A stretch of 64,000 nt of DNA. It comes from Tubulanus polymorphus. Its lineage: Eukaryota; Nemertea; Palaeonemertea; Tubulaniformes; Tubulanidae. The position numbers and the translations under genes are program-made. The notes beneath the pieces are model-generated. The model searched no databases. It worked only from the letters and a program-made list of their open reading frames with translations, and was not told the origin of the DNA. The stretch covers positions 22,164,001-22,228,000 of the forward strand of contig NC_134025.1 of assembly GCF_964204645.1 (NCBI RefSeq), read 5' to 3'. How positions within the stretch are numbered: the first letter of the stretch is position 1; the number at the start of each line of letters is the position of its first letter. Shown here in pieces: positions 26,583-63,698 of the stretch.

Positions 26583-29500
26583 ATGGAAGAACTCGAGTCA
26601 GAGACTCTTTTACCAAGTGGCAGTCGTTTACGTAAGGAAATTAAGGACAAAACTAACCCGGCCAGTGCAGGAACTTCGTACGGAACTGGCGGAGGCGTTT
26701 CTTCGACATGGTCAGTTAAGTCAAAACAGAAAATACTAGCAAGAAGTGCCAGCGCATCAGGAAGGCTGTTAGATGCTTCGATACAGAGAGGTGATACTAG
26801 TATTTACGACCCTCGATTGCAGGTGATCAGAGGAGGAACGGGCGAAAATGGAATCGATGATTTGGCAACTTCGTTTCAGGAAGAAGAGTACGAAGTTGAC
26901 TACGGTAGGCAGAAAGGAGTCGATTTGATTATTGGAAATTAGTCGTATGCCTCTTTTTCTATGTATGATTTCAATGATATTCATTTAGATCCTCTGACAC
27001 TTCTACAAGCTCAGGTTTTCATTGAAGACGCCGCCTATGTGAGTATGATTCAATTCAAATGACTCTTTATTGTATTTAAGATCCTTACGGATTGAGGCAT
27101 ACAGAGTGTGAAAATAAAGTATAATAAACATAGGGACTTGACAAAAAAGGATTTTGACCCCAGTATCCTAGGTACTATATATAAAAAGAAAAGACGTTTT
27201 ATATATAGTACCTAGGATACTGGGGTCAAAATCCTTTTGTGTCAAGTCCCTGTGATAATATATGATTTACAGAATACAGTCATCTCCCACTGGTCAACTC
27301 GTACCACTTCAAAATTTCTTAATGTACCTAACTATGCTCCTGATTTAATTTTCTCAGCATTTGATATAGCATCTTGTTGGTATTAACAAAGATAGAAAAT
27401 ACTTCATGAAAAACCTAGGGCTATCAGTTGAAGGGATTTTTCACAGAAAGTGAAAGTATATTCTATAGCGTGTATATCTGATGTCGTGAAAAGAAGATTC
27501 ACGTTTTTTGCTCAGATGTCAAACAGGAAACATAGCCTTGATTCAAAGATTAAACAGTTGAAAATATATCTTTAGATGGGGAGATGAATACCTTGTCAAA
27601 ATACAGGGACAAGTTGTACGCAATAGAGTACATGTTAACTGGTTTATGAGTAAACCCAGTGAAGCTACCATTTATATAGGCCCATATAAGTTGCAGTAAC
27701 ACTATCTCATTGGTTATTAAGCATTGCGCTTGCTTTTTTTTTATGGGTCTAACCTTACTAGTTTTTGCTCTCCAGGGCCAGTTTCCCAAATAGAGATTAA
27801 TCCTGAAATTGATTTTAAGATATCCACCCGAGCTGGATTACATTGTAATTTAGATTGTTTCAATAATATTCATGCCTAATTAGAATCATTGATTTTGAGT
27901 ACCTTTATTTAGTATCGCTCGATTCACCATAAAGTTGATGCAAAGGCGCTGAAACTGTACAGAGTGTACTACTCGCGACCGATACGATGGTAAGAGACAG
28001 TGTTTAAGAGACAGTCTTCTTAATGGCAGCTTTTTGCCTGCTTTGATAGACCATTTCAAACAGATGTTTTATTCCTTTTATCGTTTTCAGGCTACTGAAT
28101 ATAAACATTTTCGTCATCCACATACTGGCATTTTTCGAAAAGCCATCTTCTCTGACATGGACGTCGGACATTCGGACCCGTGCTGAACAAGTTGATCCAC
28201 CATGTGGCGCTACTGAATCCATTGAAGCTGTGTGCCTGGTTTTGTTCGTGATCGATCTCGTAACGAAAGTAAATGCATTTCTTGTAAATCGAATGAGATT
28301 TCTAAGATTAAGATTTAAGATCTAAGAATTGATCCCTGCTAGTCATCCCTCACGTTAATCTAGTCTCAGCGGGACACTGTCCCAGCACTCTGGAATATGT
28401 TACCTAGTCCTATAAATCTAGACGACCTTTTTAAATCTCATCTCGACACCAATTTGTTCATCAAAGCTTTCGATTAAATCTGTTTTCTTTTTATATATTA
28501 AAACCAATAAGCATATTTTGGATGGATTTTAGGCTGCATAAATTATCATTAATTATTATTATTAATTCTCATTAATTATTATTATTAATTCTACCTGTCT
28601 TCATTAGAACGCTGCAGTTTTTGTACTTTTCAATACTTTTTGCTTTCAGTCGTATCTGATCGGTAAACATCGGGTGTTACGTAGCCGATGGATTCTTGGA
28701 TACTTTGTCGTATTGTTGATTTCTATCATCGATTGGTCAGTGTCGATAAGCTTTTTATGCGCAGAAGTAAGCAATCAAAATCCAATAGAACCCAGTGTGG
28801 TGGCGAAGATATTCAATATTTTGTAATGGGATTTCTGCATAGAATGAATTTGTTTTGCTATAGGTACCCTGTGTTATTTTCATAGGAAAAGGTATTGAAA
28901 TTTGCAATCTTCTATCAAAAAGAGTTGTTTAGTGCTTTAAATCCATGTTCATTGGCATTTTCAATTCAGGGGTCATAAGTTCTGGTGGCAGTTTCTTGGT
29001 TGGTTATTCTCTGAAAAAAACCTTGGACATGCAAACGATAATGCCATCAGGTTAAGCATGCTTGGCAGGTTAAGTCCTTCAGTGCATGTATTACGCTATG
29101 CCTTGTATAATCTACCCATCCTAGATTGCGCCAACCCTGCAGTGCAGTGTACCGTGTAATTATGAATTAAGTTCAGGTCTCTATTGAAAGATGGCAGCAC
29201 CTGTCAAACATTGTAAATATTAGCTAACGATACACCGCACTGCGGGGTACATGCAAAATAGCAGGATGCCCGTTATAAAACGGACTGGTGTGGGATTTCC
29301 AAAATTTAAAGTTATCTCCAGCACTTCAGAGTTCGAAACTCAGTACTGAAAGGGTTTAGGGATTAAAACAAGATGAAAAACATCTTATTTCATATTTCTG
29401 GATGTAGAGAATAGACCTTCAGATCCTAATTTCATCCGTTTGAATTTTAGATGATAAGAATCCGTCGATTGTTTCGTCCGTTCTTCCTGCTGCAGAATTC

Positions 29501-61300: not shown

Positions 61301-63698
61301 TCCCACTATGACTAGATTACTTAAAATTAGTTTAGAACTTGATATGAAAACTTTTATGAATTTGTCAAATTTAACTGTGTGTGACCTGCTTTTCTGTTAT
61401 GAGCCAACCTCGCTCACTCTAAACATTATAAACAAGCTACTGTAGTTAGTGGGACGGCCGATCTCAAGTGTTTGCCACCCGGTTAACTAGCATCCATACT
61501 CCTCGGCCTTTAATCCTAAACAACTTGCGCCGAACCAGACTTGACACATGCACAGTACCAGTCATCAGTAGCAACAACTTCCAGAAACCAATACCTAGGG
61601 ATAAAGTAGGATAAACCCATCTGATGATGTCTTTATCTTTGTTTAGATAGAAACGTTCCGCCAACCTGCACTAAACTCTATGCCACCACCGTGGTAGTGG
61701 TAACCAGCGCTCCAACACAGTGACTGCTAACTCAACTCATCAGATATATAGAAGTCCTACTGGTTGAATTTGTAGAAATTCGAATTGATCATTCTTATTC
61801 AAGAGTGTTTTATCCATCGGAGTGAAATCTCTTATTAGATGTAATTTGTGATTTTTGCAATTTTTTAGATTATCAGTTAAGATAGCAATATTTTTTGGTC
61901 ACTTCACTTGGACTTCTTGTAGTGCGTCAACGTTTCAAATCCCAATCCTAGGCCCTATTTTTCATTGTCGACCCTTAACGACTGCATTGTCTCATGGAAA
62001 GCTGTCCCAATCATTTATCTAGAACAGCTGATTTCTGAAAGGGGCACTTCATCGGTCTGACCCTGATATCTTCGGAATTTATCAAACAAATAAAATGATG
62101 TTTAGAACCTATGTGTATTTGCTGATAAATCTTATCTTCACCTTCTCTGTGGTGAATGTACACAACATTTTTAATGAAACACAATATACAGTCTGAAATA
62201 TGTATTTCGGGCCAGATAGCATGCACGTGGAGTATGAAAGCAAAATTTCAATGAAAAAAAAATCAATCCGATTTTTACGCGGTCTGGGGGTATTATGGCA
62301 AAATGCCGATGGACCAAAGTTCCCAAATGAGCTATCTTCAAAATACTCAGAATACTACCATTTGTCTGCCCGAGTAACTGGGAGATGTAGAAAAGTTCAA
62401 CGAAACGTCGAGAGTATTAAATTAAAACATTTGTTCTTTTGATGTTTTGCAGATTCAAATTTCATATTGTCACCACCGTCGATGATAGCCGGTGCCAGCA
62501 TAGCGGCAAGCATCAGTGGACTGATCGGACCGCAGTGGGTCAAAATATTGAATATCCTCGATCATCTACAACGCGTTACAGGAATAGAATCGGTGAGTTT
62601 ATTAAAACACTACACGTGGCGAAGAAGGAATTTTTGTTCCTTTTCCAAAATCAACATAAAACAGTAAAAAATGTCACCTTTACAATACGAAGTTACCGCT
62701 GCCTGCAGCTTTAGTTCAGCGGTTGCTTACAATCTTAGTGGGTTGTTTATTTGATAGCCTGGTTATATTATTTAGATGGGTGGCATTTCTCTGATGATTT
62801 TACCTTCGGTCGCCTGCCTGCCTCTCTTGCTTATTCAAAGCAGAAAAACTTTTTGAGTGGTTGACCTAGAAAATTACATTCATAAAAGGTGCCTTTGTAG
62901 TATAAAGTATCATGGTACATCGGGTGCAGTCGACTCCTAAGCCAGTAGCCTAGTGTTCACATCTGTAACATTGTCAAAGTTTTGCAGCAGCGCGAGAAAG
63001 GAGAATCTACTGGCCTGTAAATAGAGTTATGTACTCAGGACATGCTATCCATGCTAGCACAGATATATGTGAAACAATTAACATAATTCTTTGATTTACT
63101 GAATTAATGAACGATCAAACCATTAACCCTAAGTGACTGCACACCAAATTGTAGGCGGTATCCATTGAGATCCTGTAACTGATGATAATGATAGCTTTCG
63201 ACTTTCCTAGCCACCGCGTAAATAAATAACCGATGGTCAGTCACTGGGGGCCACTTTCCACCGGGTTGTGGTAAACACATGTAATGCTAGCTAAACAAAC
63301 TGGTCTTATCGACAGATCAACAGATAGATGGATTGTTACTAGTTAAAGATACTATTTTTACTGCAAATGTAGAATTTGTGAGAAAAAGTGTAATGTTTAA
63401 GTGCAATAGTTTTACACAAACTGGGTACATTTACATTGCATGGTAAGGCATTGATAATGAAGATAACTTCGTGGCTGACATTTATTGTTCATTAACTTCT
63501 TTGATAGTGATTTCATGCGAAACTAATCAGTTGCTGTTTCATTTTTGCGTTTTGCAGGATTGTCTAGCGTCGTGTCAAGAACTAATCGAACAAACGCTAT
63601 CAAGCAATGTGCCCCATCTAAATCCGCCGCCGCAAACGAAGATCGAACATCACGAGCACCCCCTCACCCCGACGGACATTCAGGACGTGCACTTCTAA
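55326..63698 (+). CDS. CCND: G1/S-specific cyclin D
   Basis: Five exons join in phase: 55326-55529, 56001-56216, 57795-57957, 62453-62592, 63558-63698. The product is 287 aa (human cyclin D2 289), with the five-exon structure and phases of vertebrate D cyclins. The N-terminal cyclin box at about 40-150 includes [22 protein letters not shown] and A-S-K-L-K-D-T (112-118). The second box includes D-W-E-L-L-V and [11 protein letters not shown]. The C-terminus L-T278-P279-T-D-I-Q-D-V is the conserved threonine degron (Thr286 in human D1) used in phosphorylation-dependent turnover. The N-terminal Rb-binding motif LxCxE is changed: the aligned residues are E6-Y-C8-R-E10. Known role: CDK4/6 partner that phosphorylates Rb family proteins to pass G1. 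Intron 3 is 4.5 kb and holds nothing I can support. One D-cyclin gene is usual in invertebrates, so CCND is used without a number. Confidence 0.97.

Follow-up and report, generated by a model that had tools for sequence, protein, structure and literature searches.

Close Linkage of TPC2 and Cyclin D Genes in the Nemertean Tubulanus polymorphus, in the Order and Orientation of Human TPCN2 and CCND1

In the nemertean Tubulanus polymorphus the genes for the two-pore channel TPC2 and for cyclin D are both found on the plus strand, with TPC2 upstream and 20,084 bp separating its stop codon from the cyclin ATG, and each is the sole copy in an assembly of 267.8 Mb. Human TPCN2 and CCND1 are likewise transcribed in the same direction as one another. 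The match in order, proposed in an initial annotation of this DNA, is borne out by the published human arrangement TPCN2, (MYEOV), CCND1 (PMC11319300, PMC9341513). The close linkage probably reflects shared descent from an ancestor common to this animal and the vertebrates, and it is the evidence for this reading, together with the explanations that compete with it, that is laid out below.

Results

The window studied here is a stretch of 64,000 nucleotides, C1:22,164,001-22,228,000 (contig NC_134025.1 of GCF_964204645.1), and all positions are given in window coordinates, with negative values lying upstream. It is free of N and set within a 32-Mb contig of an assembly made up of twelve large contigs (11.5-32.1 Mb) and 65 small ones, for a genome of 12 chromosomes. 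COX1 was looked for in the assembly and not found; one of the small contigs (C77, 15.6 kb) contains integrase-like open reading frames, KRBA2-type by eye, and its identity as the mitochondrial genome has been ruled out.

TPC2 is an endolysosomal two-repeat cation channel, and the gene identified here consists of about 19 coding exon pieces on the plus strand, running from an ATG at 26583 to a stop codon at 35241. The first coding exon (26583-26939, with an open frame to 26939 and an approximate 3' end) carries an N-terminal acidic dileucine, ESETLL. Alignment with human TPC2 places the beginning of the first six-helix repeat in the exon at 28122-28268; a stretch corresponding to the S4-S5 lipid site follows at 29457-29555, selectivity filter I (TTANNPD / MMPAYRKN) is encoded by exons at 30615-31175, the second pore with filter II (VVNNW) by exons at 33974-34297, and the last coding exon (35161-35241) ends in the stop. 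Acidic dileucines serve lysosomal sorting and Asn-containing filters are a trait of TPCs, and both motifs are here read from sequence. When the clearest exons were concatenated and compared with the PDB using phmmer, TPC2 scored 289.6 bits, TPC3 62.8 and TPC1 58.6, while a T-type Ca channel reached 82.9 bits as a sum over the channel's repeats. The two six-helix repeats are thus closest to TPC2 and not to TPC1, TPC3 or the voltage-gated channels and, with no second TPC locus among the matches in the whole 267.8-Mb assembly, the gene is a single-copy orthologue of human TPCN2.

Cyclin D, an activator of CDK4/6, is represented by a complete five-exon GT-AG model on the plus strand (55326-63698) that encodes 287 amino acids. 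The exons, of 204, 216, 163, 140 and 141 bp, lie at 55326-55529, 56001-56216 (the 216-bp exon, which contains the cyclin box), 57795-57957, 62453-62592 and 63558-63698, the last including the stop codon and a C-terminal Thr-Pro phosphodegron, TPTDIQDV, that aligns with the C terminus of CCND1. At the predicted N terminus (55326-55361, counting from the start codon of the model) the sequence reads ExCxE where the canonical RB-binding motif is LxCxE. Across the full cyclin fold D-type cyclins rank above the E, A and B types: the best phmmer matches are CCND3 (262 bits) and CCND1 (257 bits), followed at a distance by cyclin E1 (80) and cyclin A (77), and the assembly holds no second cyclin D, the remaining cyclin matches scoring at most 44 bits. 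The gene is a single-copy orthologue of the ancestor of CCND1, CCND2 and CCND3. Judging from the dileucine and filters of the one and the degron of the other, both predicted proteins look ordinary; they act separately, and the pairing of their genes does not imply a joint function.

With exon models for both genes, the limits proposed initially, 26583 and 63698, turn out to be the TPC2 ATG and the cyclin D stop codon, and the linkage itself, with TPC2 upstream and both genes on the plus strand, holds for a single-copy pair 20.1 kb apart. An assembly misjoin, or a misassignment of paralogues, would have produced an apparent pair as well. An artefact of this kind is extremely improbable, given a window without N inside a 32-Mb contig, top matches that beat the paralogues by more than 170 bits and the single-copy status of both genes.

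We could find no protein domain in the interval that separates the two coding sequences (35242-55325). A Pfam scan of its 94 open reading frames of at least 55 codons returned one weak, implausible match and nothing credible, so that, at the resolution of a domain search, the two genes are direct neighbors, with room between them for a short or fast-evolving gene. Two tRNA genes are present, both on the minus strand, tRNA-Gly(GCC) at 36114-36189 and tRNA-Thr(AGU) at 37884-37956. Between them, at 37409-37565, is an inverted repeat of 72 nt whose arms are 89% complementary and enclose a 13-nt loop, either MITE-like or a hairpin. A scan of the interval for bacterial promoters and terminators gave results at the level of shuffled sequence, and such a scan is not meaningful for animal DNA. 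It had been suggested that a gene-poor interval in front of the cyclin is a trait shared with human. The comparison is weak, since a longer gap without a recognized gene, 25 kb in length (-27.4 to -2.3 kb), is found 30 kb upstream, and since the 20 kb seen here and the roughly 550 kb in human are not comparable without scaling.

The surroundings of the pair were surveyed over about 100-130 kb on either side, and within this range no further human 11q13.3 gene was recognized. From the upstream end, the genes are an EML-type β-propeller (about -66 to -64.5 kb, plus strand), TRMT61A with its GCD14 domain (-61 to -58 kb, minus), an otopetrin (-54.9 to -53.4 kb, plus) and a homeobox gene of NKX2-1 type (minus strand, -37.4 to -27.4 kb), which precedes TMEM216 by some 30 kb. 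Deuterostomes carry NKX2-1 within their pharyngeal gene cluster, and with this in mind the neighbors of the homeobox gene may be worth checking. Within the window a TMEM216-type exon lies at 3729-4094 on the minus strand (PF09799, 53.5 bits); this family covers TMEM17 and TMEM80 also, and the TMEM216 assignment comes from a sequence comparison. Exons of SND1 (Tudor-SN), with SNase and Tudor domains, follow on the plus strand over an approximate span of 11446-16078, and a TMEM9/TMEM9B exon (21612-21833, minus; PF05434, 49.9 bits) is upstream of TPC2 in a head-to-head arrangement. Downstream of cyclin D there are immunoglobulin-domain genes in tandem (82-110 kb, plus), a WD-repeat gene (112-114 kb, minus), laminin-G genes (114-136 kb, minus) and, last in the recognized order, GPCR-like genes. 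The Ig-like exons occur in near-identical tandem units of about 7.7 kb at 90.5, 98.3 and 106.0 kb (approximately 90500-107250), a pattern that, read from the sequence, indicates a recent tandem duplication.

Apart from TPC2 and cyclin D, none of the recognized genes is known as a neighbor of human TPCN2 or CCND1. By human map position, a chromosome 11 member is found in 5 of the 8 neighbor families scored, where about 1 is expected; otopetrin, which lacks a chromosome 11 member, was omitted from the count, making the figure slightly generous. The initial observation that several genes of the window have chromosome 11 relatives is therefore right, yet by itself it is weak evidence, the proportion falling to 3 of 6 families (P of about 0.03) when the pair is left out.

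More informative is the distribution of other markers along the chromosome. Families with members in human 11q13, or in regions belonging to the same duplicated set, were located genome-wide. The only PPP6R/SAPS locus is at C1:24.63 Mb, the only cortactin-repeat (CTTN) locus at C1:27.36 Mb and the only TEAD locus at C1:27.89 Mb; anoctamins have roughly six loci, of which one maps to C1:26.26 Mb. PPP6R, CTTN and anoctamin are 11q13 families, and the TEAD member on human chromosome 11 is at 11p15. Because C1 makes up 12% of the genome, the chance that all three sole-copy families would fall on it is 0.0019, and the markers together with the TPC2-cyclin D pair span C1 22.2-27.9 Mb, that is, 5.7 Mb. 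The four markers, each with a human chromosome 11 member, themselves cluster in 3.3 Mb (C1 24.6-27.9 Mb). Two FGF matches map to C5 and C2 and not to C1, establishing that the human CCND1-FGF neighborhood is not kept in this genome. NADSYN1, MRPL21 and LTO1 were searched for in the genome without a match, and a Yae1_N control was equally blank, so that this result is not evidence of absence. Overall, the data support a shared ancestry of human 11q13 and the part of C1 that carries the pair.

Discussion

Given such shared ancestry, the presence of TPC2 and cyclin D on one chromosome is to be expected and only their close adjacency needs explaining. Gene order within ancestral linkage groups is largely scrambled (Simakov et al., PMC7269912), and macrosynteny alone thus provides no adjacency; it is the tight pairing that must be accounted for. 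One explanation is coincidence: the ancestral chromosome is shared, its order was shuffled, and the two genes came together twice, once on the way to vertebrates and separately on the way to T. polymorphus. Scrambling is, after all, the rule inside linkage groups (PMC7269912), the other 11q13 markers on C1 are 2-6 Mb away in scrambled positions, and the linkage to FGF genes is absent. Set against this are the numbers. With some 2,000 to 3,200 genes on C1, a number derived from the local gene density, a specified pair of genes on this chromosome would be nearest neighbors by chance with a probability of 0.0006-0.001, decreasing to about 0.0002 when the human order and orientation, both of which match, are included; even allowing for about ten opportunities for a human neighbor in a five-gene window, the chance should still be about 0.01 or less. 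Coincidence consequently appears unlikely, and ancestral adjacency is clearly favored over it on the basis of this genome and those of vertebrates. The initial proposal of a surviving ancestral linkage is accordingly supported in part: at the scale of the chromosome, through PPP6R, CTTN, TEAD and one anoctamin on C1, and by an adjacency that is improbable by chance, while failing to extend to the FGF genes.

Shared descent of the linkage would mean that the pair has stayed close, with order and direction kept, since the ancestor common to T. polymorphus and vertebrates, on a chromosome that would share its ancestral linkage group of origin with part of human 11q13. Why it should have stayed close is a separate question. 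In vertebrates a conserved element is flanked by TPCN2 and CCND1 in 16 of 17 species analyzed, and in chicken, and this enhancer contacts CCND1 in both human and mouse, whereas zebrafish has no sequence match to it (PMC11319300). The CCND1 domain seen in human B cells extends from near TPCN2 to a point between LTO1 and FGF19 (PMC9341513). Close linkage of TPCN2 and CCND1 is thus old within amniotes (PMC11319300), and a regulatory block is a reasonable explanation for its retention in vertebrates; for T. polymorphus we can only infer one. In such a scheme cis-regulatory sequence of cyclin D would sit between the two genes, perhaps inside TPC2 as well, rearrangements splitting the pair would be selected against, and TPC2 would be a bystander. 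The interval at 35242-55325 is then the candidate seat of this sequence. Our confidence that a cis-regulatory constraint of cyclin D caused the retention of the pair is tentative, and falls somewhat short of even.

Alternatively, the ancestral adjacency may be neutral and simply not yet split, with no regulatory constraint. An interval as short as 20 kb offers few breakpoints, and it contains tRNA genes in otherwise unremarkable sequence, as would suit a passive survival. The retention of the pair in amniotes and the CCND1-contacting enhancer in the human interval (PMC11319300) speak against it, and we regard passive survival as a real possibility that is nonetheless rather less than an even prospect. 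The stronger version of the regulatory reading, in which the stretch from TPC2 to cyclin D is a cyclin D regulatory domain as old as the bilaterians, strikes us as doubtful. Were it true, the 11q13.3 landscape that is rearranged or amplified in human cancers would be a regulatory unit of deep inheritance, and TPC2 would have been a bystander throughout its history. We have found no report in the literature of the pair in other invertebrates, and none is mentioned in PMC6784235. Should the adjacency span phyla, TPC2 and cyclin D would constitute an ancient pair that survived more than 500 million years of gene-order scrambling, and an old cyclin D regulatory domain would be predicted in the interval rearranged in cancer, a prediction testable in invertebrate loci of about 20 kb.

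It is useful to compare the locus with known systems. The TPCN2-(MYEOV)-CCND1 region of human (11q13.3), other mammals and chicken has the same orthologues, with TPC2 upstream, in the same direction and with no further old coding gene between them. The intervening distance is 20 kb with two tRNA genes here and about 550 kb in human; beyond the cyclin are genes without recognized 11q13.3 counterparts, in place of human LTO1 and FGF19/4/3; and a single cyclin D corresponds to three human ohnologues. Conserved gene pairs of this sort are of an already known kind. Irimia et al. reportedly described ancient conserved microsyntenic pairs in 2012, and in these, as in genomic regulatory blocks, two functionally unrelated genes are likewise neighbors, one of them a regulator of development or proliferation. 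That class is characterized by conservation over multiple phyla and by regulatory content, whereas the present case is known from the sequence of one genome. The bilaterian and chordate ancestral linkage groups (PMC7269912; PMC11371463) offer a second parallel, in that TPC2, cyclin D, PPP6R, CTTN and TEAD are linked at the scale of a chromosome; linkage groups of this type preserve content and not order, whereas the finding for TPC2 and cyclin D is one that concerns order.
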